From Frigoribacterium sp. CFBP 13712 (GTDB taxonomy: Bacteria; Actinomycetota; Actinomycetes; Actinomycetales; Microbacteriaceae), in contig NZ_JACYVH010000003.1 in NCBI RefSeq assembly GCF_014842255.1, forward strand, positions 124,001 through 188,000: a DNA stretch of 64,000 nucleotides. The letters run 5' to 3'. Shown piece after piece: positions 25,490-44,873 of this stretch. The notes beneath the pieces are model-generated. The model saw only the letters and a program-made list of their open reading frames with translations, did not search any database and had not been told where the DNA came from. Numbering within the stretch: the stretch's first letter is position 1; each line of letters starts with the position of its first letter. Made by a program: the position numbers and the translations under genes.

Positions 25490-25511
25490 TGTCGGAGGTG
25501 CCCGCTAGGCT
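25490..25511 (+). promoter_or_regulatory. polA promoter, DNA-damage (RecA-NDp/PafBC-like) type, leaderless
   Basis: TGTCGGAG (25490-25497), exactly 8 nt, then TAGGCT (25506-25511), 6 nt before the GTG of polA. Spacing and sequence match tTGTCRgtg-N8-TAnnnT, the mycobacterial RecA-independent damage promoter, apart from A for T in the right half. The 14 nt GCCGTGTCGGAGGT (25486-25499) is identical to the one before the DUF885 gene. Confidence 0.6.
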
Positions 25512-25517
25512 GACGGG

Positions 25518-28184
25518 GTGTCGGACGAAGCAAAGCCTACCCTCCTGGTCATCGACGGTCATTCGCTGGCCTTCCGCGCGTTCTACGCCCTACCGGTCGA
25601 CAGTTTCGTCAACCGCGAGGGCCAGCACACCAACGCGATCCACGGCTTCATCTCGATGCTGCTGAGTCTTCTCAAAGCCGAGAAGCCCACGCACCTGGCC
25701 GTCGCGTTCGACATCTCGCGATTCTCCTTCCGCACCCGCGAGTACCCCGAGTACAAGGGCACGCGCTCCGAGACCCCGCCCGAGTTCGTCGGTCAGATCC
25801 CCCTCTTGGAGGAGGCCCTTCACGCGATGGGCATCACGACCATCACCAAAGAGGACTTCGAGGCGGACGACATCCTCGCGACCCTCGCGACGCGCGGTCG
25901 AGACGAGGGCTTCCGAGTGCTCGTCGTCTCCGGCGACAGAGACGCCATCCAGATGGTGAACGACGACGTCACCCTCCTCTACCCCTCGGCTCGGGGCGTC
26001 AGCGAACTGACCCGCTACGACCGCGACAAGGTGTTCGAGCGCTACGGCATCGAGCCGCATCAGTATCCCGAGGTGGCCGCCCTGGTCGGCGAGACCAGCG
26101 ACAATCTGATCGGCATCGACAAGGTCGGCGAGAAGACCGCGGTCAAGTGGATCAACCTCTACGGGGGGCTCGACCAGATCATCGAGCGCGCCGACGAGAT
26201 CAAGGGCGTCGTCGGTCAGAAGCTGCGAGAGCAGAAAGAGAACGCGATCCGCAATCGTCGCCTGAACCGTCTGGTCACCGATGTCGAGCTGCCCGTGGGG
26301 CCGGCCGACCTCGAGCGCCGGGGCATCGACGAGGCTGCGGTCCGAGAGCTGTTCGACAAGCTGCAGTTCCGGACGCTGCTCGAGCGCGTCCTCCTCCTGT
26401 CCGAGTCCTCGTCGACCGGCGAGGCGTCCGAGCCCGCCGTGACGGCAGCACCGGTCGGCATGCCCGTCGTCCGTACCCTCGTCGACGAAGAGCTCGCCTT
26501 CTGGCTCAAGAAGCACGCCTCCGACCCGCAGAGCCCCGTGGGGCTCGTGGTCGAGTACGGCAACGATGGCGTCGTCGGGCTCGGCCTCTCGACGCAGGTC
26601 GAATCGGCGTACATCCCGTGGGCCGCCGGGCGCGGCGACTACGTGGCCCTCGAGGCCTGGCTCGACGGAGAGACCCCCAAGGTCGTCCACGACGCCAAGC
26701 GCGCCTACAAGGCACTGTCGCGAGTGGGTCTGCATCTCACGGGCGTCGTCGGCGATCCCCGTGTCGCCGCCTGGCTCCTCCGACCGGCCCGCACGTCGTT
26801 CGCCCTCTCGGACCTCGTCTACGAGCAGCTCGGCGAGTCGCTGCCCGTCGGCGACCCCAACCAGCTCGTCGCCAGCGAAGACGATTTCAGCGTGGCATCC
26901 GAGGCGTGGTTCGTCCTGCGCCTCTCGGACTCCCTGGTCGACGCACTCGATGAAGGGTCGCGACGCGTCCTGACGGAGATCGAGCTCCCGCTCGTCCCGG
27001 TGCTCGGCGACATGGAGCTCACCGGGGTGGCCGCTGATCGCCCGACGCTCCAGGCCCTGTCCGTGCGGTTGGGCGAGTCCGCAGCCGGACTCGCCACCGA
27101 GGCGTTCGCGGAGATCGGCCGCGAGGTCAACCTCGGCTCCCCGAAGCAGCTGCAGGAGGTGCTGTTCGAGCAGCTCGAGATGCCGAAGACCCGCGCGACG
27201 AAGACGGGCTTCTCCACCGACGCGGCCTCTCTCGCCGACCTGCAGGAGAAGCATCCCCACCCGTTCCTCGATCTCCTCCTCAAGCACCGCGATGCCACCA
27301 AGCTGCGGCAGATCATCGAGACGCTCGAGAAGTCGATCGCCGACGACGAACGCATCCACACGACGTACGACCAGACCGGCACGACCACCGGGCGGATCTC
27401 ATCGGTCGACCCGAACCTCCAGAACATCCCGGTCAAGGCCGCCGTCGGTCGCGAGATCCGTGCCGCGTTCATCCACGGTCCGGAGTACGAGACCCTGCTG
27501 ACGGCCGACTACTCGCAGATCGAGATGCGGATCATGGCGCATCTCTCGGGTGACGAGGGCCTGATCCAGGCGTTCAACGAGGGTGAGGACCTGCACCGCT
27601 TCGTGGGTGCCCGCATCTTCGGGGTCGAACCGGCCGACGTCTCACCCGCCATGCGGACGAAGGTCAAGGCCATGTCGTACGGTCTCGCCTACGGCTTGAG
27701 CGCATTCGGCCTGTCGAAGCAGCTCCGGATCGAGAGCTCCGAGGCCAAGCAGCTGATGACGGACTACTTCGCGCGTTTCGGGGCCGTCCGCGAGTACCTG
27801 CGGAACGTCGTCGAGCAGGCCCGCGAAGACGGCTACACCGAGACCATCTTCGGTCGCCGTCGACCCTTCGCCGACCTCAAGTCACCCAACCGGGTGCTGC
27901 GCGAGAACGCCGAACGTGCAGCGCTGAACGCCCCGATCCAGGGCTCGGCCGCCGACATCATGAAGATCGCCATGCTCGGAGTGCAGTCCGAGATCGGGTC
28001 TCGTGAACTCGCGTCGCGTGTCCTCCTGCAGGTGCACGACGAGATGATCGTCGAGGTCGCACCCGGCGAGGTCGACGCCATCCGCGACATCGTCCGTCGC
28101 CAGATGAGCGGTGCCGCCGATCTCAGAGTGCCTCTCGACGTCAGCGTGGGTCTCGGCGAGAGCTGGGACGCCGCGGCGCACTGA
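25518..28184 (+). CDS. polA: DNA polymerase I (no proofreading residues)
   Basis: An 888 aa repair and Okazaki-fragment polymerase. Order: 5'-3' exonuclease (about 1-290, with SGDRDAIQMV), a degenerate 3'-5' exonuclease domain (about 315-490), then the polymerase with motif A DYSQIEMRIMAHLSGDE, motif B RTKVKAMSYGLAYG and motif C LQVHDEMIVEV. The DxE metal pair of the proofreading site is absent (VVEYGNDG stands there), as known for other actinobacterial PolA. GTG start set by the -10 element 6 nt upstream; no Shine-Dalgarno is present. The damage-type promoter fits a repair role. Confidence 0.96.
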   Translation: MSDEAKPTLLVIDGHSLAFRAFYALPVDSFVNREGQHTNAIHGFISMLLSLLKAEKPTHLAVAFDISRFSFRTREYPEYKGTRSETPPEFVGQIPLLEEALHAMGITTITKEDFEADDILATLATRGRDEGFRVLVVSGDRDAIQMVNDDVTLLYPSARGVSELTRYDRDKVFERYGIEPHQYPEVAALVGETSDNLIGIDKVGEKTAVKWINLYGGLDQIIERADEIKGVVGQKLREQKENAIRNRRLNRLVTDVELPVGPADLERRGIDEAAVRELFDKLQFRTLLERVLLLSESSSTGEASEPAVTAAPVGMPVVRTLVDEELAFWLKKHASDPQSPVGLVVEYGNDGVVGLGLSTQVESAYIPWAAGRGDYVALEAWLDGETPKVVHDAKRAYKALSRVGLHLTGVVGDPRVAAWLLRPARTSFALSDLVYEQLGESLPVGDPNQLVASEDDFSVASEAWFVLRLSDSLVDALDEGSRRVLTEIELPLVPVLGDMELTGVAADRPTLQALSVRLGESAAGLATEAFAEIGREVNLGSPKQLQEVLFEQLEMPKTRATKTGFSTDAASLADLQEKHPHPFLDLLLKHRDATKLRQIIETLEKSIADDERIHTTYDQTGTTTGRISSVDPNLQNIPVKAAVGREIRAAFIHGPEYETLLTADYSQIEMRIMAHLSGDEGLIQAFNEGEDLHRFVGARIFGVEPADVSPAMRTKVKAMSYGLAYGLSAFGLSKQLRIESSEAKQLMTDYFARFGAVREYLRNVVEQAREDGYTETIFGRRRPFADLKSPNRVLRENAERAALNAPIQGSAADIMKIAMLGVQSEIGSRELASRVLLQVHDEMIVEVAPGEVDAIRDIVRRQMSGAADLRVPLDVSVGLGESWDAAAH

Positions 28185-28484
28185 CGGCCCGCCTGACGCG
28201 ATCGTCGGCCAGCCGACCCGCCGCGTCGGTCCAGAACGGCTCGATCCGCTCGGAGTGGGCACACTCGGGCGCGACCGTGGCAGCCTGCGCGCGCCTCAAG
28301 CCCCGGCGACGACTCGAAGCGGGCGCAAACAAAGCAGAAACGCGGTCCCGACTTGACGAACAGACACAAACGGGCTTATATGAAATCTGCTCGGTGAACG
28401 TCGGGCACCAAACGGCTCTTAATTCACTGAACAGCTGATGACTTCCTTCCGGTGAGTCATCCCCGCACGACGACGAGGTCTCGC
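28185..28484 (+). promoter_or_regulatory. Promoter and candidate operators for the DeoR-PTS unit
   Basis: 300 nt with no gene. It contains a good sigma-A type promoter: TTGACG (28353-28358), 17 nt, TTATAT (28376-28381). CAAACGG occurs twice in the same orientation, at 28367-28373 and 28409-28415, 42 bp apart (four helical turns) and spanning the -10 and start site. It is a plausible operator for the DeoR protein. The first 150 nt show nothing I can assign. Confidence 0.6.
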
Positions 28485-29246
28485 ATGTACGCACCTGAGC
28501 GTCATCAGCAGATCCTCGATACGGCATTGAGCAGAGGTCGGGTCGAGGTGGCGGGTCTGGCCCGTGACCTCTCGGTCGCGCCCGAGACCGTGCGCCGGGA
28601 TCTGACCGAGCTCGAACGGCGTGGCGTCCTCCGACGTGTCCACGGTGGCGCCATCGCCGTCGAGCGCCTCGGCATGGAGCCCCCCGTCGTCGATCGTGAG
28701 GGCACCGCGGCGGCCGAGAAGGACCGCATCGCCCGAGCTGCGCTCGATGAGCTGCCCGAAGAGGGTTCGATCATCATCGACGCCGGCACGACGGCCATCC
28801 GGTTCGCCGAGCTGCTGCCTGTGGATCGCGTGCTGACGGTCGTCACCCATTCGCTCGCCGTGGCGACCATCCTCATCAGCAGGCCCAACGTCACATTGCA
28901 CCTCCTCGGTGGACTGATCCGCACCAGGACGTACTCCTCGGTCGGGGACTGGACGCGCAGCCAGCTCGCCGACGTCTTCGCCGACGTGGCCTTCGTCGGG
29001 ACGAACGGCGTCTCCGTCGAGCGAGGGCTCAGCACGCCCGATCTCGCCGAGGCGCGGGTCAAGCGCGCCCTCCTCGCGTCGTCCAGGCGGACCGTCGTCC
29101 TCGCCGACCACACGAAGTTCGGCCGCGAGGACTTCGCGAAGGTCTCCCCGCTCTCCGACGTCGACACGATCGTCACCGACTCCGGGGTCGACGGCGAGCT
29201 CGCCGACGACGTCGAGCGCGCCGGCCCCAGGGTCGTGATCGTCTGA
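28485..29246 (+). CDS. DeoR-family sugar operon regulator
   Basis: A 253 aa repressor-type protein. The N-terminal winged helix-turn-helix (about 4-57) has RHQQILDTALSRGRVEVAGL and APETVRRDLTELERRGVLRR; the C-terminal DeoR sensor domain carries IIIDAGTTAIRFAELL, VVTHSLAVA, LLGG and DHTKFG. It is expected to respond to a phosphorylated sugar. Position before a mannitol-type PTS suggests it controls that operon and, from the direct repeats at its promoter, itself. ATG 28485 is preferred over GTG 28452 because GAGG lies at 28475-28478. Confidence 0.9.
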   Translation: MYAPERHQQILDTALSRGRVEVAGLARDLSVAPETVRRDLTELERRGVLRRVHGGAIAVERLGMEPPVVDREGTAAAEKDRIARAALDELPEEGSIIIDAGTTAIRFAELLPVDRVLTVVTHSLAVATILISRPNVTLHLLGGLIRTRTYSSVGDWTRSQLADVFADVAFVGTNGVSVERGLSTPDLAEARVKRALLASSRRTVVLADHTKFGREDFAKVSPLSDVDTIVTDSGVDGELADDVERAGPRVVIV

Positions 29247-29335
29247 TGACGACCTCCCCCCACAGCCCCACCCGAAGCACCATCCCCCTCCCGCACCCCC
29301 ACGCTCGTCACTGAGTACGAAGGAGTACCGCCCTC

Positions 29336-30535
29336 ATGTCCGAATTCACCCCCACGGTCACCGGGACCGGTGTGCGCGCTCGCGTACAGCGGTTCGGAGG
29401 CTTCCTCTCCGGCATGATCATGCCGAACATCGGCGCGTTCATCGCCTGGGGTCTCATCACGGCTCTGTTCATCGAGACCGGGTGGACGCCCGTCCCGCAG
29501 CTCGGCGGTTTCGGAACGGACTCCGCCGGCGAGCCCTACGGCGGCATCGTCGGTCCGATCATCACGTACCTGCTGCCGATCCTGATCGCCTACACCGGTG
29601 GTCGCATGATCCACGGTCAGCGCGGAGCGGTCATCGCCGCCGTCGCCGTCCTCGGTGTCATCTCGGCGACGGACGTCCCGCAGTTCCTCGGCGCCATGAT
29701 CGTCGGCCCGCTGGCCGCCTGGGTGCTGAAGCAGTTCGACAAGCTCGTCGAGGGTCGCATCAAGTCCGGGTTCGAGATGCTGGTCAACAACTTCTCGCTC
29801 GGCATCATCGGTGCGGCCATGGCCATCGCGGCCTTCTTCGGCCTCGCCCCGATCACGACGTGGCTCACCGACCGGTTCGGTGAGGCCGTCGAGTTCCTGG
29901 TCAACCTCGGTCTCCTGCCGTTGGCCTCGATCATCATCGAGCCTGCGAAGGTGCTGTTCCTCAACAACGCCATCAACCAGGGCTTCCTGACCCCGCTCGG
30001 CGCCATCCAGTCCGCAGACGCCGGCAAGTCCATCCTGTTCATGCTCGAGTCGAACCCCGGTCCCGGGCTCGGCATCCTCCTCGCGTTCCTCTTCTTCGGC
30101 CCGCGTGCCATCCGCCCGTCGGCCCCCGCCGCCATCATCGTGCACTTCTTCGGCGGCATCCACGAGATCTACTTCCCCTACATCCTCATGAAGCCCATCC
30201 TGCTCATCGCCGCCGTCGCCGGTGGCGCCACGGGGATCGCCTGGTTCTCGGCCTTCGGGCTCGGGCTCGTCGGGCCGGCTTCGCCGGGCAGCATCATCGC
30301 CTACTTCGGCGTCGCCGCGCGGGGGGACTTCCCGCTCATCCTGGTCGGCATCCTGCTGTCCGCTCTCGTGTCGTTCGTCGTCTCATCGCTCCTGATGGGC
30401 TTCGGTCGCAAGGAGAACCGCGAGGCTGCGGCCGAGGACGCCGAGGCCCAGCAGCAGGCGCTGGCCGACGCGCAGGCGGCGACCGCCGCCAACAAGGCCA
30501 CCAGCAAGGGAACCGCTGCTCCCACAGCGTCCTAG
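29336..30535 (+). CDS. mtlA: PTS mannitol-type transporter, EIIC
   Basis: Membrane channel component that imports and helps phosphorylate mannitol (or a related hexitol). The 399 aa protein has about eight hydrophobic segments from residue 18 to 365 and the family motif GGIHEIYFPYILMKP near 282-296, whose Glu binds substrate in mannitol EIIC proteins. The C-terminal 40 residues are charged and Ala-rich, with no EIIB domain attached, so unlike E. coli MtlA the components are split into separate proteins. GAAGGAG precedes the ATG. Hairpin 30543-30572 separates it from EIIB. Confidence 0.92.
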   Translation: MSEFTPTVTGTGVRARVQRFGGFLSGMIMPNIGAFIAWGLITALFIETGWTPVPQLGGFGTDSAGEPYGGIVGPIITYLLPILIAYTGGRMIHGQRGAVIAAVAVLGVISATDVPQFLGAMIVGPLAAWVLKQFDKLVEGRIKSGFEMLVNNFSLGIIGAAMAIAAFFGLAPITTWLTDRFGEAVEFLVNLGLLPLASIIIEPAKVLFLNNAINQGFLTPLGAIQSADAGKSILFMLESNPGPGLGILLAFLFFGPRAIRPSAPAAIIVHFFGGIHEIYFPYILMKPILLIAAVAGGATGIAWFSAFGLGLVGPASPGSIIAYFGVAARGDFPLILVGILLSALVSFVVSSLLMGFGRKENREAAAEDAEAQQQALADAQAATAANKATSKGTAAPTAS

Positions 30536-30542
30536 TGATTGA

Positions 30543-30572
30543 ATCGGGGGGTGGCTCCGGCCGCCCCCCGAT
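30543..30572 (+). other. Intra-operon hairpin between EIIC and EIIB
   Basis: Stem ATCGGGGGG-T-GGC with GCC-G-CCCCCCGAT, loop TCCG, 12 pairs plus a G-T pair. No T-run follows and AAGGAG of EIIB is 13 nt beyond, so it could be a partial terminator or an mRNA-stabilising or processing element. Confidence 0.55.
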
Positions 30573-30596
30573 CCACCTCGAAACAAGGAGAACACC

Positions 30597-30905
30597 ATGG
30601 CAACCCTCGACGGATCGTCCATCAAGAAGCTCATCGTCGCCTGCGACGCGGGCATGGGCAGCAGCGTCATGCTCGCCTCCACGCTCAAGAAGCAGCTCAA
30701 GAAGAGCGGGGTCACCGTCGAGCACTCGCCGGTGTCCGAGATCCCGGCCGACGCCGACGTCGTCGTCACCCAGAACAACCTCGCCGAGCGTGCGCGCGGG
30801 GTCGTCCCCGACATCCCCGTCGTGCCCTTCCAGCTGTTCATGGGCGACCCCAACGTGGCCAAGGTCGTCAAGGCCATCCAGGACGGCTCGACGGTCGAGG
30901 TCTGA
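30597..30905 (+). CDS. PTS mannitol-type EIIB
   Basis: A 102 aa cytosolic phosphotransfer protein. The phosphocysteine is Cys16 in VACDAGMGSSVMLAS, the mannitol-class EIIB active loop. It receives phosphate from EIIA (30908) and hands it to sugar at EIIC. AAGGAG (30585-30590) is 6 nt before the ATG. EIIA starts 3 nt after its stop codon, so translation is probably coupled. Confidence 0.92.
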   Translation: MATLDGSSIKKLIVACDAGMGSSVMLASTLKKQLKKSGVTVEHSPVSEIPADADVVVTQNNLAERARGVVPDIPVVPFQLFMGDPNVAKVVKAIQDGSTVEV

Positions 30906-30907
30906 CG

Positions 30908-31369
30908 ATGACCGACCAGGCTCCTGAACTGACGGCGCTGCTCGCCGAATCCTCCATCCGGCTCGACGAGTCCGCCGCCACGCGCGACGAGGCCATCCGG
31001 GCGACCGGTCGGGCCCTCGTCGAGGCCGGCGCAATCGATGAGGCGTACATCGACGCGATGTTCGAGCGTGAGAACTCCGTCTCGACGTACGTCGGCGAAG
31101 GTGTCGCCATCCCTCACGGCACCCTGGCGGGCAAGGACTCGGTGAAGAACGACGCCCTCGTCGTCCTCCGGTTCCCGCAGCCGATCGACTGGGACGGCAA
31201 CGAGGTCTCGGTCACCGTGGGCATCGCCGCGAAGGGGAATGGGCACATCGCCATCCTCAGTCAGCTGGCGAGCATCCTGATGGACCCCGACAAGGCCGCA
31301 GCCCTCCGGGGTGCGACCACGACTTCGGAGGTCTACGACCTGCTGCAGTCCGACGAAGACGACGACTGA
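30908..31369 (+). CDS. mtlF: PTS mannitol-type EIIA
   Basis: A 153 aa phosphocarrier of the fructose/mannitol EIIA fold. The active histidine is His70 in GVAIPHGTL. It takes phosphate from HPr and passes it to EIIB. The acidic end SDEDDD is unusual only in composition. An ATG start 3 nt after the EIIB stop is used; a longer frame extends upstream through EIIB out of its frame and is not real. Confidence 0.92.
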   Translation: MTDQAPELTALLAESSIRLDESAATRDEAIRATGRALVEAGAIDEAYIDAMFERENSVSTYVGEGVAIPHGTLAGKDSVKNDALVVLRFPQPIDWDGNEVSVTVGIAAKGNGHIAILSQLASILMDPDKAAALRGATTTSEVYDLLQSDEDDD

Positions 31370-31469
31370 CCTCGACGCCCCCTCCGTCCGGCCTCCCGGC
31401 CGATCGGATCCGCACCGCCGTCCGACGACGACGGCACCAGACCGCACCGGTCTCGACCAAGGAGTAGAA

Positions 31470-31739
31470 ATGCCCGAACGCACCGTCACCATCGCCTCGA
31501 GCGTCGGTCTGCACGCCCGTCCCGCCTCGCTGTTCAGCCAGGCGGCCGGCAAGACCGGTGCAAAGGTGACGCTCACGACCTCGGCCGGCAAGAGCGTCAA
31601 CGCTGCGAGCATCCTCGGCGTGCTGTCGCTCGGCATCAACCACGGCGACGAGGTCGTCATCGCCACCGACGGGGACAACGCCGAGGCCGCCCTCGACGAG
31701 CTCGCCGCCCTGCTCGAGACGGACCTCGACAAGGACTGA
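31470..31739 (+). CDS. ptsH: PTS phosphocarrier protein HPr
   Basis: An 89 aa general phosphocarrier. His15 in VGLHARPAS is the phosphorylated residue, and Ser47 in NAASILGVLSLGI is at the place of the regulatory serine of Firmicutes HPr (whether it is phosphorylated in this organism is unknown). AAGGAG (31459-31464) precedes the ATG. It is encoded with one sugar system, while EI (ptsI) is elsewhere. The operon ends at a 15 bp hairpin 20 nt downstream. Confidence 0.95.
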   Translation: MPERTVTIASSVGLHARPASLFSQAAGKTGAKVTLTTSAGKSVNAASILGVLSLGINHGDEVVIATDGDNAEAALDELAALLETDLDKD

Positions 31740-31759
31740 GCGCCTCCTGCGGTCCTCGA

Positions 31760-31794
31760 GGGCACCGGGTCGACGACACGTCGACCCGGTGCCC
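31760..31794 (+). terminator. Terminator after ptsH
   Basis: A perfect 15 bp stem (GGGCACCGGGTCGAC with GTCGACCCGGTGCCC, loop GACAC) followed by TTCTCTGT. Confidence 0.85.
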
Positions 31795-31829
31795 TTCTCT
31801 GTCAGCCACCGAGAATGACCAGCCCGCCG

Positions 31830-31851
31830 TGTCGGAGGTCGCGTCTAGGCT
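31830..31851 (+). promoter_or_regulatory. DUF885 gene promoter, DNA-damage (RecA-NDp/PafBC-like) type, leaderless
   Basis: TGTCGGAG (31830-31837), 8 nt, TAGGCT (31846-31851), 6 nt, ATG. The 14 nt GCCGTGTCGGAGGT (31826-31839) is identical in sequence and position to that of polA, 6.3 kb away. Confidence 0.6.
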
Positions 31852-31857
31852 CGGGGC

Positions 31858-33552
31858 ATGTCAGACGACTCGACCAGCACCTCCAGCCGCGTCCCCACAG
31901 CCATCGACGCGATCGCCGAACGCTGGGTCGACACGCTCGTCGATCTCGATCCCTCGGTCGCGACGTGGATCGGGCGTGAAGGGCGCACAGGCGAGTACGG
32001 CGACTACTCGCCCGAGGGGCACGACCGGCGCATCGGCGAAGCGCGGGCCGTCATCGCCGCTCTCGACGCGGCCCCCGTCGTCGATGACGTCGACCGCGTG
32101 ACGCAGACGGATCTGCGCGGTGAGCTGGCGCTCGACGTCGAGTTCCACGAGGCGCGGCTGCATCTCCGCGACCTGAACGTCATCGCTTCGCCCGCGCAGG
32201 GGATCCGCGAGGTGTTCGATCTGATGCCGACGGGCTCGCTGTCGGACTGGTCCGACATCGCCTCCCGTCTGGCGGCCGTCCCGTCCGCTCTCGAGGGCTA
32301 CGAGGCGTCCCTCCGCGCCGGTGCCGCCGAGGGCGTCGTCCCGGCTCGCCGGCAGATCGAGAAGGTCGCCGTCCAGTGCGCACGGATCGGACGACGAGAC
32401 GGATTCTTCGCCGATCTCGTCGGCGGGGCCCGTCCTGAAGACGGCACCGCGCCTCCTGCCTCCCTCGATCGCGATCTCGCACGGGGAGCCGAGGCGGCCG
32501 CGTCGGCCTACCTCCGGTTCGAGAGGTTCCTGGTCGACGAGATGCTCCCGTCCGGGGGCGCCCACGACGGAGTGGGGCGCGAGGCGTACGCGCTGCACTC
32601 CCGTCGATTCCTCGGGGCGGCGATCGACCTCGACGAGACCTACGAGTGGGGCCTCGACGAGCTCGCGCGGATGACCGCCGAGCAGGAGGCGGTGGCCGGC
32701 CGGATCGAAGAGGGCGCGAGCGTGCAACGCGCGGTCGAGGTGCTCGACGCAGACCCCTCACGGCGTCTCGACGGGACGGAAGCCCTGCAGCACTGGATGC
32801 AGGAGCTGAGCGACCGGGCCGTCGACGAGCTCGGTCGGACCCACTTCGACATCCCCGACGAGCTGCGTCGCCTCGAATGCCGCATCGCCCCGACCCGTGA
32901 CGGCGGCATCTACTACACGGGTCCGAGCGACGACTTCTCGCGGCCCGGCCGGATGTGGTGGTCGGTGCCCGAGGGGGTCACCCGCTTCGACACCTGGCGC
33001 GAGACGACGACCGTCTACCACGAAGGCGTCCCGGGTCACCACCTGCAGCTCGGCCAGGCCGTCCACAACCGCACGAATCTGAACACCTGGAGGCGGCAGC
33101 TGGCGGGTACCTCGGGTCACGCCGAGGGCTGGGCCCTGTACGCGGAGCGCCTGATGGACGAACTCGGCTACCTCGACGATCCAGGTGACCGGCTCGGCAT
33201 GCTCGACGGCCAGCGGATGCGCGCGGCCCGTGTCGTCCTCGACATCGGAGTGCATCTCGGGAAGCCCTTCCCGGGCGACGGCGGACGACGCTGGGATGCC
33301 GAGAACGCCCTGGACTTCATGCGCCGGAACGTGAACATGGACGACGAGTTCGTCGTCTTCGAGGTCGACCGTTACCTCGGCTGGCCGGGTCAGGCCCCCT
33401 CGTACAAGGTGGGCCAGCGCATCTGGGAGGACCTTCGCGCGGAACGCACCCGACGAGACGGCGCGGCCTTCGACGTGCGCCGCTTCCATCGTGACGCGCT
33501 CCGACTCGGCGGGGTCGGCCTCGACACGCTGAGGCGCGAGCTCCTCCGCTGA
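31858..33552 (+). CDS. DUF885 family, metallopeptidase-like protein
   Basis: A 564 aa cytosolic protein of a widespread family with no settled function. The key motif is YHEGVPGHHLQL, with His388, Glu389, His394 and His395, resembling a gluzincin-type zinc site in which Glu is the general base. ECRIAPTRDGGIYYTGPSDD and GTSGHAEGWALYAERLMDELG follow the usual family pattern, the latter likely giving a third ligand. No signal peptide or membrane segment is seen. The ATG at 31858 is fixed by the -10 element 6 nt upstream. It stands alone between the ptsH terminator and rpsA. Its promoter resembles those of polA and uvrB, suggesting induction by DNA damage; that is inference. Peptidase activity is likely but the substrate is unknown. 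Confidence 0.85.
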   Translation: MSDDSTSTSSRVPTAIDAIAERWVDTLVDLDPSVATWIGREGRTGEYGDYSPEGHDRRIGEARAVIAALDAAPVVDDVDRVTQTDLRGELALDVEFHEARLHLRDLNVIASPAQGIREVFDLMPTGSLSDWSDIASRLAAVPSALEGYEASLRAGAAEGVVPARRQIEKVAVQCARIGRRDGFFADLVGGARPEDGTAPPASLDRDLARGAEAAASAYLRFERFLVDEMLPSGGAHDGVGREAYALHSRRFLGAAIDLDETYEWGLDELARMTAEQEAVAGRIEEGASVQRAVEVLDADPSRRLDGTEALQHWMQELSDRAVDELGRTHFDIPDELRRLECRIAPTRDGGIYYTGPSDDFSRPGRMWWSVPEGVTRFDTWRETTTVYHEGVPGHHLQLGQAVHNRTNLNTWRRQLAGTSGHAEGWALYAERLMDELGYLDDPGDRLGMLDGQRMRAARVVLDIGVHLGKPFPGDGGRRWDAENALDFMRRNVNMDDEFVVFEVDRYLGWPGQAPSYKVGQRIWEDLRAERTRRDGAAFDVRRFHRDALRLGGVGLDTLRRELLR

Positions 33553-33593
33553 CGGGGCCCGATCGACGAGTGTCGACACGGAGTCGGGGTCCG

Positions 33594-33622
33594 TTGCCGC
33601 GGCCGGGACACGAGGCTATGAT
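33594..33622 (+). promoter_or_regulatory. rpsA promoter
   Basis: TTGCCG (33594-33599), 17 nt, TATGAT (33617-33622). The predicted start near 33629 gives a leader of about 105 nt before the rpsA ATG. A good match to a sigma-A promoter, as expected of a highly expressed ribosomal gene. Confidence 0.65.
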
Positions 33623-33732
33623 GTCCATGCGCTATCCGCGTCACTCTGCCCGCACGCTGCGGTCGATCACCCCGAGAACACGTTCACGGACGACCACGGC
33701 CCGATTCATGCTTTCACTGGAGCACTAACTAC

Positions 33733-35181
33733 ATGACAACCGTAACGACCAAGGCACCCAAGCAGGTCGCCATCAACGACATCGGATCCGCTGATGACTT
33801 CCTGGCCGCGGTCGAAAAGACTCTGAAGTTCTTCAACGACGGCGACCTCATCGAAGGCACCGTCGTGAAGATCGACCGCGACGAGGTCCTCCTCGACGTC
33901 GGCTACAAGACCGAGGGCGTCATCCCCTCGCGCGAACTCTCGATCAAGCACGACGTCGACCCCACCGAGGTCGTCGAGGTCGGCGACACGGTCGAGGCCC
34001 TGGTCCTCCAGAAGGAGGACAAGGAAGGCCGTCTGATCCTGTCCAAGAAGCGCGCTCAGTACGAGCGTGCCTGGGGCGACGTGGAGAAGATCAAGGACGC
34101 CGACGGCGTCGTCACCGGTACCGTCATCGAGGTCGTCAAGGGCGGCCTCATCGTCGACATCGGACTCCGTGGCTTCCTCCCGGCCTCGCTCATCGAGCTC
34201 CGCCGTGTGCGCGACCTCACGCCGTACCTCGGCCAGGAGATCGAGGCCAAGATCCTCGAGCTCGACAAGAACCGCAACAACGTGGTCCTGTCGCGTCGCG
34301 CGCTCCTCGAGCAGACTCAGTCCGAGAGCCGCACCACCTTCCTCAACAACCTCCACAAGGGCCAGGTCCGCAAGGGCATCGTGTCGTCGATCGTCAACTT
34401 CGGTGCGTTCGTCGACCTCGGCGGAGTCGACGGTCTCGTCCACGTCTCCGAACTGAGCTGGAAGCACATCGAGCACGCCAGCGAGGTCGTGGAGGTCGGC
34501 CAGGAGGTCACCGTCGAGATCCTCGAGGTCGACCTCGACCGTGAGCGCGTCTCGCTCTCGCTCAAGGCGACGCAGGAAGACCCGTGGCAGGTGTTCGCTC
34601 GGACGCACGCCATCGGTCAGGTCGCGCCCGGCAAGGTCACGAAGCTCGTCCCGTTCGGTGCGTTCGTGCGCGTCGCAGACGGCATCGAGGGCCTCGTTCA
34701 CATCTCGGAGCTGTCGGCCAAGCACGTCGAGCTCGCCGAGCAGGTCGTCGCCGTCGGCGACGAGGTGTTCGTCAAGGTCATCGACATCGACCTCGACCGC
34801 CGTCGCATCTCGCTGAGCCTCAAGCAGGCCAACGAGGGCGTCGACCCCGAGGGCACCGAGTTCGACCCGGCGCTGTACGGCATGCTCACCGAGTACGACG
34901 ACCAGGGCAACTACAAGTACCCCGAGGGCTTCGACCCGGAGACCAACGAGTGGCGCGAGGGCTTCGACTCGCAGCGCGAGAAGTGGGAGCAGGACTACGC
35001 TGCAGCCCAGTCGCGCTGGGAGGCCCACAAGAAGCAGGTCGCCGCTTCGCTGGCCGAAGAGACGACGTTCGACGTGCCCACCGGCTCCTCGTTCTCGAAC
35101 GAGACCCCCTCGGGCGCCGGCACCCTCGCCGACGACGAGTCGCTCGCCGCACTGCGCGAGAAGCTCTCCAGCAGCAACTGA
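33733..35181 (+). CDS. rpsA: 30S ribosomal protein S1
   Basis: A 482 aa mRNA-binding ribosomal protein with four S1 (OB-fold) domains at about 36-105, 121-190, 208-277 and 293-362, seen from repeated units such as GIVSSIVNFGAFVDLGGVDG and GKVTKLVPFGAFVRVADGIEG. A tail rich in Tyr, Glu and Trp (about 375-440) follows, then a Ser/Thr-rich end. Four domains, rather than the six of E. coli, are typical of actinobacteria. Placement between polA and coaE/uvrB is conserved synteny. Followed by a strong hairpin. Confidence 0.97.
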   Translation: MTTVTTKAPKQVAINDIGSADDFLAAVEKTLKFFNDGDLIEGTVVKIDRDEVLLDVGYKTEGVIPSRELSIKHDVDPTEVVEVGDTVEALVLQKEDKEGRLILSKKRAQYERAWGDVEKIKDADGVVTGTVIEVVKGGLIVDIGLRGFLPASLIELRRVRDLTPYLGQEIEAKILELDKNRNNVVLSRRALLEQTQSESRTTFLNNLHKGQVRKGIVSSIVNFGAFVDLGGVDGLVHVSELSWKHIEHASEVVEVGQEVTVEILEVDLDRERVSLSLKATQEDPWQVFARTHAIGQVAPGKVTKLVPFGAFVRVADGIEGLVHISELSAKHVELAEQVVAVGDEVFVKVIDIDLDRRRISLSLKQANEGVDPEGTEFDPALYGMLTEYDDQGNYKYPEGFDPETNEWREGFDSQREKWEQDYAAAQSRWEAHKKQVAASLAEETTFDVPTGSSFSNETPSGAGTLADDESLAALREKLSSSN

Positions 35182-35211
35182 TCACGGCGCCTCGGCGCTC
35201 ACGATCGCACT

Positions 35212-35245
35212 GACAGGCGGTTCCCCCTCGGGGGAACCGCCTGTC
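35212..35245 (+). terminator. Terminator after rpsA
   Basis: A perfect inverted repeat, GACAGGCGGTTCCCCC with GGGGGAACCGCCTGTC, around a 2 nt centre (effective loop CTCG). It lies 30 nt after the rpsA stop; no T-run. Confidence 0.8.
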
Positions 35246-35290
35246 GGCGTCTGCGGCCGGATGCGGGGGAGTCTGCGCTCAGCGGCCTGA

Positions 35291-35310
35291 CCCGGCCCGG
35301 CCCGGCCCGG
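35291..35310 (+). repeat. Four tandem CCCGG repeats upstream of coaE
   Basis: CCCGG is repeated four times without interruption, ending 5 nt before the coaE -10. The expected -35 position (about 35293-35298) lies inside the array. Copy number could vary by slippage. Confidence 0.8.
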
Positions 35311-35315
35311 CCGAG

Positions 35316-35321
35316 TATCAT
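35316..35321 (+). promoter_or_regulatory. -10 element of a leaderless coaE promoter
   Basis: TATCAT ends 6 nt before the coaE ATG, with no Shine-Dalgarno between. The -35 position falls in the CCCGG array. Confidence 0.55.
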
Positions 35322-35327
35322 CGCGGC

Positions 35328-35978
35328 ATGTTCATCTGCGGCCTCACGGGCGGGATCGCCGCCGGCAAGAGCACCGTCTCACTGCGTCTGGCCGAGAGGG
35401 GTGCGGCCGTCATCGATGCGGATCAGCTCTCCCGCGAGGTCGTCGACGTCGGGACTCCGGGATTCGAGGCGGTCGTCGAGCGCTTCGGCACCGGTGTCGT
35501 CTCACCTTCCGGCGGGCTCGACCGCAAGGCACTGGGTGCCCTCGTCTTCGGTGACTCGGCCGCTCGGCTCGACCTCGAGTCGATCATCCATCCCGCGGTC
35601 AGAGCCCTCTCGGCGCAGCGCATGGCCGAGGCCGTCCGCGACGACCCCAGACGAGTCGTGGTCTACGACGTGCCCCTCCTGGTCGAGTCTCGCGGTGCGG
35701 GCGAGTTCGACGTCATCGTCGTCGTCCACGCTCCTCGCGAGCAGCGCCTCCGTCGTCTGATCGAGTTGCGGGGCATGTCGCGCACCGAGGCCGAACGGCG
35801 ACTCGACGCCCAGGCGTCGGACGAGGAGCGTCTCGAGGCGGCGGACATCGTCGTCGACGCCACCGGCAGCCTGGAGGACACGAAGAGGCGCGCGGACGAT
35901 CTCCACGAGCGGCTGCGTTCGCTGTCAGCACGGAAGGCGGACGCCCCCGAGGCGCCCAGTGTCGGTGGTCCCTCGTAA
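35328..35978 (+). CDS. coaE: Dephospho-CoA kinase
   Basis: Last step of coenzyme A synthesis: phosphorylates the 3' hydroxyl of dephospho-CoA. The 216 aa P-loop kinase starts [16 protein letters not shown] (Walker A at 6-16) and shows [29 protein letters not shown] and [17 protein letters not shown] (LID region). No extra UPF0157 domain is fused, unlike in mycobacteria. Its TAA stop forms the first three bases of the uvrB -10 (TAAACT), and the uvrB damage box lies inside its last codons. Confidence 0.95.
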
Positions 35979-35981
35979 ACT
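35960..35981 (+). promoter_or_regulatory. uvrB promoter, DNA-damage (RecA-NDp/PafBC-like) type, leaderless
   Basis: TGTCGGTG (35960-35967), exactly 8 nt, TAAACT (35976-35981), then 7 nt to the ATG. It is a full match to TGTCRGTG-N8-TANNNT. The box lies in the coaE coding region, and the -10 includes the coaE stop codon. Confidence 0.7.
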
Positions 35982-35988
35982 CGGAAGC

Positions 35989-38055
35989 ATGGAACCAACC
36001 CGTAGCGTCCGCCCGTTCGAAGTCGTCAGCGAGTACGAACCGAGCGGCGACCAGCCGGCCGCCATCGCCGAGCTCGCGGGTCGGATCAACGCGGGCGAGA
36101 CCGATGTCGTCCTCCTGGGTGCGACCGGAACAGGCAAGTCGGCGACGACCGCCTGGCTCGTCGAACAGGTGCAGCGCCCGACGCTCGTGCTGGCGCACAA
36201 CAAGACCCTCGCCGCGCAGCTCGCGAACGAGTTCCGTGAGATGTTCCCGCACAACGCCGTCGAGTACTTCGTCTCGTACTACGACTACTACCAGCCCGAG
36301 GCGTACGTGCCCCAGACCGACACGTTCATCGAGAAGGACAGCTCGATCAACGCCGAGGTCGAGCGGCTGAGGCACTCGACCACGAACTCGCTGCTGAGTC
36401 GCCGCGACGTCATCGTCGTCTCGACGGTGTCGTGCATCTACGGGCTCGGCACGCCCGAGGGCTACCTCGAGGCCATGATCGCGCTGCAGGTGGGTCAGCG
36501 CATCGACCGCGAGACCCTGATCAGACGGTTCGTCTCGATGCAGTACCAGCGCAACGACATCGACTTCTCCCGCGGCAACTTCCGCGTGCGTGGCGACACC
36601 ATCGAGATCATCCCCATGTACGAGGAGCTCGCCATCCGCATCGAGATGTTCGGCGACGAGGTCGAGGCTCTGTACGCCCTGCACCCCCTCACCGGCGACG
36701 TCGTCAAGACCCTCGACGCCGTGTCCGTGTTCCCCGGGTCCCACTACGTGGCCGGCACGGACGTCATGCATCGCGCCATCGGCACCATCAAAGACGAGCT
36801 GGCCGATCGACTCGGAGAGCTCGACAAGCAGGGCAAGCTGCTCGAGTCCCAGCGCCTCCGCATGCGCACGACCTTCGACCTCGAGATGATGGAGCAGATC
36901 GGGTTCTGCAACGGCATCGAGAACTACTCCTCCCACATCGACGGCCGTTCGCCGGGCGAAGCGCCTCACTGCCTCCTCGACTACTTCCCCGACGACCTGC
37001 TGGTCGTGATCGACGAGTCGCACGTGACGGTGCCGCAGATCGGCGCCATGTACGAGGGCGACGCCTCCCGCAAGCGCACCCTGGTCGATCACGGTTTCCG
37101 ACTGCCCAGTGCGCTCGACAACCGACCCCTCAAATTCGAGGAGTTCCTGAACCGCGTCGGGCAGAAGGTGTACCTGTCGGCGACCCCGGGCAAGTACGAG
37201 CTCGGCATCACGGACAGCGTGGTCGAGCAGATCATCCGACCGACCGGACTCATCGACCCCGAGATCGTCGTCAAGCCGTCCGAGGGGCAGATCGACGACC
37301 TCCTCGAGGAGATCCGCCTCCGTACGGATCGCGACGAGCGGGTTCTGGTCACGACGCTGACGAAGAAGATGGCGGAGGAGCTCACCGACTTCCTCACCGA
37401 GGCCGGTGTCCGTGTCCGTTACCTCCACTCCGATGTCGACACCCTCCGACGTGTGGAGCTGTTGACCGAGCTGCGTCAAGGCGTCTACGACGTCCTGGTC
37501 GGCATCAACCTGCTCCGCGAGGGCCTCGACCTCCCCGAGGTGTCGCTCGTCGCCATCCTCGACGCCGACAAGGAGGGCTTCCTCCGGTCGTCGACGTCTC
37601 TGATCCAGACCATCGGTCGTGCGGCCCGCAACGTGTCCGGTCAGGTGCACATGTACGCCGACAAGATGACGGACTCCATGAAGCAGGCGCTGGAGGAGAC
37701 CGACCGGCGTCGGGACAAGCAGATCGCGTACAACCTCGAACGGGGCATCGATCCGCAGCCGCTGCGGAAGAAGATCGCCGACATCACCGAGGCGCTCGCT
37801 CGTGAGGGGGCCGACACGGCCGAACTCCTCGCCGGCCGCGACGGCAAGAAACGCGCACCCACGCCGAATCTCAAACGGCAGGGTCTGGCGGCCGGTGCCG
37901 CCAACGGCCTCGAGTCGATCATCGCCGACCTCAACGAGCAGATGCTGCAGGCGGCGGCCGAGCTCAAGTTCGAGTTGGCCGGGCGCCTCCGCGACGAGGT
38001 CGCCGACCTCAAGAAGGATCTGCGACAGATGGAGGCGGCAGGGCATGTCCGCTGA
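35989..38055 (+). CDS. uvrB: Excinuclease ABC subunit B
   Basis: Damage-verifying helicase of nucleotide excision repair. The 688 aa protein has Walker [10 protein letters not shown] at 43-51, the DNA-clamping beta-hairpin [13 protein letters not shown], the DEAD-type box DESH at 342-345, helicase motif GRAARN, and the C-terminal UVR domain that binds UvrC (about 645-685). The ATG at 35989 is selected by the -10 element 7 nt upstream; an in-frame GTG at 35959 would begin inside coaE and before the -10. It overlaps the SDR gene by 11 nt. Confidence 0.96.
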
Positions 38056-38982: not shown

Positions 38983-38988
38983 TAGAAT
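38983..38988 (+). promoter_or_regulatory. -10 element of a leaderless uvrA promoter
   Basis: TAGAAT ends 7 nt before the GTG at 38996. The in-frame ATG at 38987 overlaps the -10 and cannot be on this transcript's coding part. No TGTCRGTG box is present here. Confidence 0.55.
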
Positions 38989-38995
38989 GGCAAGA

Positions 38996-41937
<2,942 letters not shown>

Positions 41938-41941
<4 letters not shown>

Positions 41942-44815: not shown

Positions 44816-44873
44816 CCGTGCCGATCGGCCGACATTCGCGTGCGCCGATCGAACCGAGAGAAGGAACCCAGGT

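Follow-up and report, generated by a model that had tools for sequence, protein, structure and literature searches.

Three promoters in a 64,000-nucleotide stretch of Frigoribacterium sp. CFBP 13712 DNA (contig NZ_JACYVH010000003.1, positions 124,001 to 188,000; C3:124001-188000 in our numbering, hereafter the window), those of polA, of a gene encoding a DUF885 protein and of uvrB, very probably belong to the regulon of the DNA-damage regulator PafBC. Judging from the sequences compared here, this regulon would comprise about 45 to 50 sites, with uvrB as a core member, polA as a member whose box varies in strength and the DUF885 gene as a member boxed in few lineages. PafBC-type promoters had been proposed for these genes in an earlier reading of the same DNA (the original prediction), and the proposal is well supported at the sequence level by the excess of the motif, the presence of pafBC, the repair-gene content of the targets and the conservation of the boxes.

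To locate such promoters, both strands of the window were searched for TGTCRGWG-N8-TANNNT, in which an 8-base -26 box precedes a -10 element. Exactly 3 matches were obtained, versus 0.01 expected from shuffled sequences (Table 1). The original prediction had described 3 boxes of identical spacing at polA, the DUF885 gene and uvrB, with the -10 element 6 to 7 nucleotides (nt) before the start codon; the coordinates hold, these are the sole matches in the window, and the measured distances are 6 nt for polA, 6 nt for the DUF885 gene and 7 nt for uvrB. The 14 identical bases that it had noticed in the polA and DUF885 promoters were recovered as the run GCCGTGTCGGAGGT, which is followed in both by CTAGGCT, and its assignment of 2 of the 3 genes to DNA repair agrees with the Pfam matches of polA and uvrB (Pfam also recognises DUF885). 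On the + strand of the window, 9 frames of at least 150 codons, some of which may not be genes, have TANNNT 6 to 7 nt before ATG or GTG, and TGTC stands in register at exactly 3 of them, which are again polA, the DUF885 gene and uvrB. The same scan of the - strand found no frame with TANNNT 6 to 7 nt before its start. As in the PafBC/RecA-NDp (P1) promoters of Mycobacterium, for which the direction-dependent consensus TGTCGG-N10-TANNNT has been described (PMC8151990), all 3 promoters carry TGTCRG in gene orientation with a 10-base gap to TANNNT. None of the 3 window matches lies at uvrA (window positions 38987-41941), downstream of uvrB.

Table 1. Promoter elements and genes in the window (positions counted from the first base of the window).
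Feature	Position	Strand	Sequence or basis
polA promoter, whole motif	25490-25511	+	TGTCGGAG-N8-TAGGCT
polA PafBC-type -26 box	25490-25497	+	TGTCGGAG; pattern match
polA -10	25506-25511	+	TAGGCT; pattern match
polA (DNA polymerase I), GTG start	25518-28184	+	Pfam DNA_pol_A, 5_3_exonuc
DUF885 promoter, whole motif	31830-31851	+	TGTCGGAG-N8-TAGGCT
DUF885-gene PafBC-type -26 box, lineage-specific	31830-31837	+	TGTCGGAG; pattern match
DUF885-gene -10	31846-31851	+	TAGGCT; pattern match
DUF885 gene, ATG start	31858-33552	+	Pfam DUF885, E 1.6e-158
uvrB promoter, whole motif	35960-35981	+	TGTCGGTG-N8-TAAACT
uvrB PafBC-type -26 box, within last coaE codons	35960-35967	+	TGTCGGTG; pattern match
uvrB -10	35976-35981	+	TAAACT; overlaps coaE stop TAA 35976-35978
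uvrB, ATG start	35989-38055	+	Pfam UvrB, UvrB_inter

In the whole assembly (3.16 Mb in 40 contigs), the same pattern yielded 23 sites and its reversed version 1. When position 7 was freed (TGTCRGNG-N8-TANNNT), 48 sites were found versus 2 for the reversed-pattern control, which means that about 2 of the 48 are expected by chance; exact patterns were counted, so weaker true sites escape these numbers. A chance origin of the motif is thus rejected by the shuffles in the window and by the reversed-pattern controls in the genome, and the question raised with the original prediction, whether the motif is as common before random genes, is answered in the negative. Target genes and their start codons were assigned by position, and a Pfam search covered the targets of 43 of the 48 sites, leaving out L150, L152, L153, L158 and L160 (L152 was searched against NCBIfam only). 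Replication and repair genes are the targets of 11 of the 48 sites. Besides polA and uvrB, Pfam identified recA (L010), dnaX (L004), a recG-type gene (L003), an AlkZ-like glycosylase (L008), a GyrB-type topoisomerase subunit (L013), 2 UvrD-like helicases (L018 and L147) and MgsA/RarA (L149), and the RadA-like gene L022 takes its inferred name from zinc ribbon, ATPase and ChlI-like parts. L013, which is cut by the end of its stretch, stayed under the cut-offs of the NCBIfam gyrB and parE models that it matched. With assumed, uncounted totals of 60 to 120 replication and repair genes in 3000, their enrichment among the 48 sites is strong, with p values of 1e-9 to 2e-6. The other targets include genes for DUF3072, DUF6504, FBP_C, HIT, histidine phosphatase, ParA-like, NAD synthase and MoxR-type ATPase proteins, one transporter and genes without a family; L150 and L153 are sites without an evident nearby gene. 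Searches of NCBIfam with pafB, pafC and 7 targets of unknown kind gave no match.

The pafB and pafC genes, which the original prediction had noted to be missing from the window and whose presence in the genome it had left to be confirmed, begin approximately 47 kb past the right end of the window. Two proteins of the genome match Pfam WYL at E 0.001, and they are encoded by adjacent genes (C3:235206-237210). When compared with the solved PafBC proteins 6sj9, 7p5x and 9fnd, the first aligns with PafB and the second with PafC (best E 6e-34 and 4e-39, respectively), and the second also carries the Pfam PafC helix-turn-helix domain HTH_PafC. For both subunits the best solved match is the fused PafBC of Arthrobacter aurescens (6sj9); here, in contrast, pafB and pafC are separate genes with an 8-base overlap. 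Downstream of them lie tatC and a gene for an MTR4-like helicase.

In mycobacteria, single-stranded DNA is bound by the WYL domains of PafBC, and PafBC joins the sigma-A RNA polymerase at promoters with the -26 motif, where it is inserted between promoter DNA and the sigma domain normally in contact with the -35 element (PMC11804915). By analogy with this mycobacterial work, single-stranded DNA would bind the WYL domains of the Frigoribacterium PafBC, which would then separate sigma domain 4 from the DNA in a complex with RNA polymerase and the housekeeping sigma factor. The -26 motif would be read instead of the -35 contact, turning the promoter on (sigma adaptation), and transcription would begin at or near the start codon, giving leaderless messages. 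Damage induction of the 3 genes is predicted on this basis. UvrABC has been described as part of the PafBC regulon (PMC8223512), and in a pafBC mutant the uvrB transcript was 37% lower (PMC5656591).

The geometry of the sites bears on the last step of this model. Bacterial transcripts start approximately 7 nt after the -10 element. At 32 of the 48 sites an open frame begins 5 to 9 nt past the -10 element, compared with 29/432 in a control shifted 15 to 55 bases downstream, and the same geometry was observed in the relatives G035, of the same genus (34/45; control 36/405), and G004, of the same family (24/42; control 39/378). Because the start codon thus falls where transcription is expected to begin, most messages of the regulon are expected to be leaderless or nearly so. 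The recA gene is an exception, with its start codon 27 nt after the -10 element.

We also analyzed the relation of these promoters to the LexA/SOS regulon, the other damage response to which they could be compared. GAAC-N4-GTTY has a single match in the window, at position 44864, and none at the polA, DUF885 and uvrB promoters. Allowing up to 1 mismatch, GAAC-N4-GTTC produced 24 matches versus 23 expected, one of them within the DUF885 coding region (31918) and none in the 3 promoters. The exact and the 1-mismatch scans therefore agree with the original prediction that a LexA-type box is absent from all 3 promoters, and SOS control of polA, the DUF885 gene and uvrB through LexA was rejected for this reason. 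The genome does contain LexA-type boxes: at recA, the PafBC site (C2:508891) is preceded by an exact one (C2:508805) 86 bases upstream. This layout recalls the mycobacterial recA, which is controlled by both systems (PMC8223512).

Conservation differed among the 3 boxes. The uvrB promoter was compared at those loci whose stretch contained the uvrB start (25/110 loci, or 27/80 named loci with a laxer match threshold), and TGTCRGNG-N8-TANNNT was present in 25/25 and 27/27 of them, respectively. The polA and DUF885 promoters were collected, wherever the stretch included the start, from 30/58 and 30/52 matching genomes, respectively, and from the best 80 of 585 named loci. Among 83 distinct polA promoters, 67 have TGTC, 34 TGTCRG and 19 TGTCRGNG in register (20/92 for the strict form before removal of duplicates), with at most 1 at any other offset, and the -10 element is TAGGCT in 77. 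Among 108 distinct DUF885 promoters, TGTCRG is in register in 6 and TGTCRGNG in 5 (4/110 when the start was projected from the alignment). The 5 belong to this genome, Frondihabitans sucicola (L063), Herbiconiux moechotypicola (L087), G011 (L052) and Subtercola vilae (L122); Herbiconiux ginsengi (L076) carries TGTCGG but lacks the final G. The -10 element of the DUF885 gene is conserved, with TANNNT 5 to 9 nt before an in-frame start in 128/132 orthologues and a spacing of 6 or 7 in all 108 distinct promoters. In almost all of the relatives compared, the DUF885 gene thus appears to have a promoter of the leaderless type, but few lineages, this one among them, also carry a box there, so that the box looks like a lineage-specific recruit. 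The original prediction had treated the 3 genes alike; this obscures the lineage-specific nature of the DUF885 box (5/108) and the fact that the full box at polA is retained by a minority of relatives (19/83), in contrast to the uvrB box (27/27). An origin of the DUF885 promoter as a copy of the polA promoter was considered and rejected. The likeness of the 2 promoters consists of GCCGTGTCGGAGGT, CTAGGCT and the first codons and does not extend upstream, and close relatives have no box at the DUF885 gene; convergence on one consensus is therefore simpler than copying.

The same scan found 45 sites in G035 and 42 in G004, with zero control matches in both. For 21 of the 48 targets, the homologue is also boxed in at least one of these relatives. 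Sharing concerns 10 of the 11 replication and repair sites and 11 of the 37 other sites (Fisher p 0.0004). Such a pattern is what one would see if repair genes formed a stable core of the regulon around which other members come and go; the DUF885 box would belong to this changing periphery.

The extent of the system was then assessed in larger samples, for which site counts and PafC E-values were transcribed by hand from the scan tables. In 60 genomes of the family, 1094 sites were found versus 101 control matches, and sites outnumbered controls in 56; the 4 genomes without excess (G010, G015, G030 and G059) are all smaller than 2 Mb. This genome, with its 48 sites, ranks second in the family sample after G011 (63). 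PafC was found in 58/60 family genomes, with one stop within the PafC stretch in 6 of them (G035, G036, G039, G044, G048 and G059) and a fragmented PafC in G009. In a phylum sample of 296 genomes, the 35 of the same class had 1319 sites versus 91 controls, with an excess in 35/35. A PafC match at E 1e-15 was obtained in 107/296 genomes, namely in 35/35 within the class (in 2 of them, G067 and G257, a stop interrupts the match) and in 72/261 outside it. Among the families outside the class, f15 had 129 sites versus 14 in 9 genomes, 3 of which (G081, G107 and G129) have a PafC match at E 1e-15, and smaller box excesses were seen in f20, f22, f28 and f48.

Several of these observations weigh against the assignment of the 3 promoters to PafBC. 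The full TGTCRGNG stands before polA in only 19 of the 83 distinct promoters, 6 other Frigoribacterium-type loci (L028, L057-L061) have no box at the DUF885 gene, and 27 of the 48 sites are common to neither G035 nor G004. Beyond the class, a PafC-like match was obtained in 72 of 261 genomes, yet the box excess there is small (945 vs 596); having a PafC-like protein is thus not enough to predict that boxes are in excess. Within the family, the strength of the PafC match correlates only weakly with site excess (Spearman 0.29, p 0.026), and G005, which has no PafC match, shows a small excess (9 vs 3). The family correlation and G005 would also suit a box that is real and regulatory but read by a different protein. 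One example is ClgR, an earlier proposal for the reader of the mycobacterial P1 motif (PMC5656591). We consider such a reader improbable: the only 2 WYL matches of the genome at E 0.001 are PafB and PafC themselves, which makes another WYL regulator unlikely, PafC match and box excess occur together in all 35 class genomes, and G015 lacks both the match and the excess (4 vs 5).

With PafBC retained as the probable reader, the box at an individual gene may still have another explanation. At the DUF885 gene it could be a chance or silent match before an ordinary leaderless promoter, polA and uvrB being genuine targets. We hold this to be unlikely. In its favour, the box occurs in 5 of 108 distinct promoters and in none of 6 close relatives, the reversed-pattern control permits about 2 chance sites in 48 and the DUF885 gene is no recognised repair gene. 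Base composition, however, gives TGTCRGNG a chance of 1.5e-4 at a given leaderless promoter position, and the 6 occurrences of TGTCRG in the exact register compare with 2 over 24 other offsets combined, which would be improbable by chance if the loci were independent, as they are only in part. At uvrB, the box lies inside coaE, with the coaE stop in the -10 element, in this genome and in 11 of 26 listed loci, and it might accordingly be kept as the coding end of coaE and not as a promoter. To this possibility we give almost no credence, and it was rejected. In the remaining 15 listed loci, the end of coaE lies upstream of the box, at variable distance and in variable frame; in 14 of these the box is at -28 or -29 from uvrB, and in one it is at -41 (projected start). 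Hence the coaE stop shifts relative to the box, which stays with uvrB. The 26-locus list took in only box-bearing loci, and the rate of presence is therefore that of the other set (27/27).

The regulation proposed here is of a kind that is already known, in a new host. The PafBC motif has been said to reach beyond mycobacteria (PMC8223512), and the finding therefore adds a member to a known kind. It indicates that the promoter rule of mycobacteria also applies in Microbacteriaceae, and it adds approximately 48 candidate targets, a leaderless layout, a family in which Pup ligase was not found and a split between shared and lineage-specific targets. As in Mycobacterium, the promoters precede recA, uvrB and other repair genes, the regulator is a pafB-pafC pair and recA has a LexA-type box. 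In contrast to Mycobacterium, G directly follows TGTCRGNG at 45 of the 48 sites, the T directly before TGTC (tTGTC in the original prediction) is found at only 3 of 48, the start codon is near the -10 element at 32 of 48 and the target list is partly different. A further difference is that no match to Pup ligase was obtained in the same 60 family genomes, in which PafBC appears to be retained; the control search was positive in Corynebacterium glutamicum. This matters because a review links pafBC closely to the proteasome locus and attributes the removal of RecA after damage to pupylation; it also states that some actinobacteria have lost proteasome subunits (PMC8223512). Among open-licence papers, none was found that mentions PafBC in combination with Microbacteriaceae, Microbacterium or DUF885, and no title among the matches listed links polA, uvrB or DUF885 to PafBC; the terms PafBC, regulon, polA and uvrB occur in the text of a Bacillus genome study (PMC11164402).

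Beyond the assignment of the 3 promoters to PafBC, it could be that PafBC of the Microbacteriaceae controls, in the absence of Pup ligase, a damage regulon whose messages mostly have no leader, and that this regulon grows as an 8-base box arises before the -10 elements of existing leaderless promoters. A gene without a recognised repair role, that of the DUF885 protein, would then have been caught in mid-recruitment, with an old promoter, a box that arose separately in a few lineages and an expression that is now damage-inducible in these. We put this forward tentatively, at a little less than an even chance. As to the DUF885 protein itself, its nearest relatives among the best 80 of 585 named loci are from Frigoribacterium strains, with 73-80% identity, and its solved relatives (3iuk, 3o0y and 3u24) were deposited without a named function. 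The protein contains HEGVPGHH, which appears to resemble a zinc metallopeptidase motif.

Two further groups of sites were observed. Immediately to the left of the window (G000:C3:123932-123953), a box and a -10 element lead directly into an inverted repeat, GACGAGGCCCC ... GGGGCCTCGTC, with no frame of at least 40 codons beginning within 60 nt; the site may belong to a short RNA or have arisen by chance. Elsewhere on the same contig, 2 uncharacterised genes that face each other, L011 (G000:C3:20487, +) and L012 (G000:C3:22132, -), each have their own box, as do their homologues in G035 and G004. The pair shows a weak likeness to GIY-YIG type nucleases (T5orf172/MUG113, E 0.001-0.002) and also to the treble-clef DUF4379 (E 5e-5) with a DUF559-like end (E 0.07); L011 and L012 are candidate repair nucleases.

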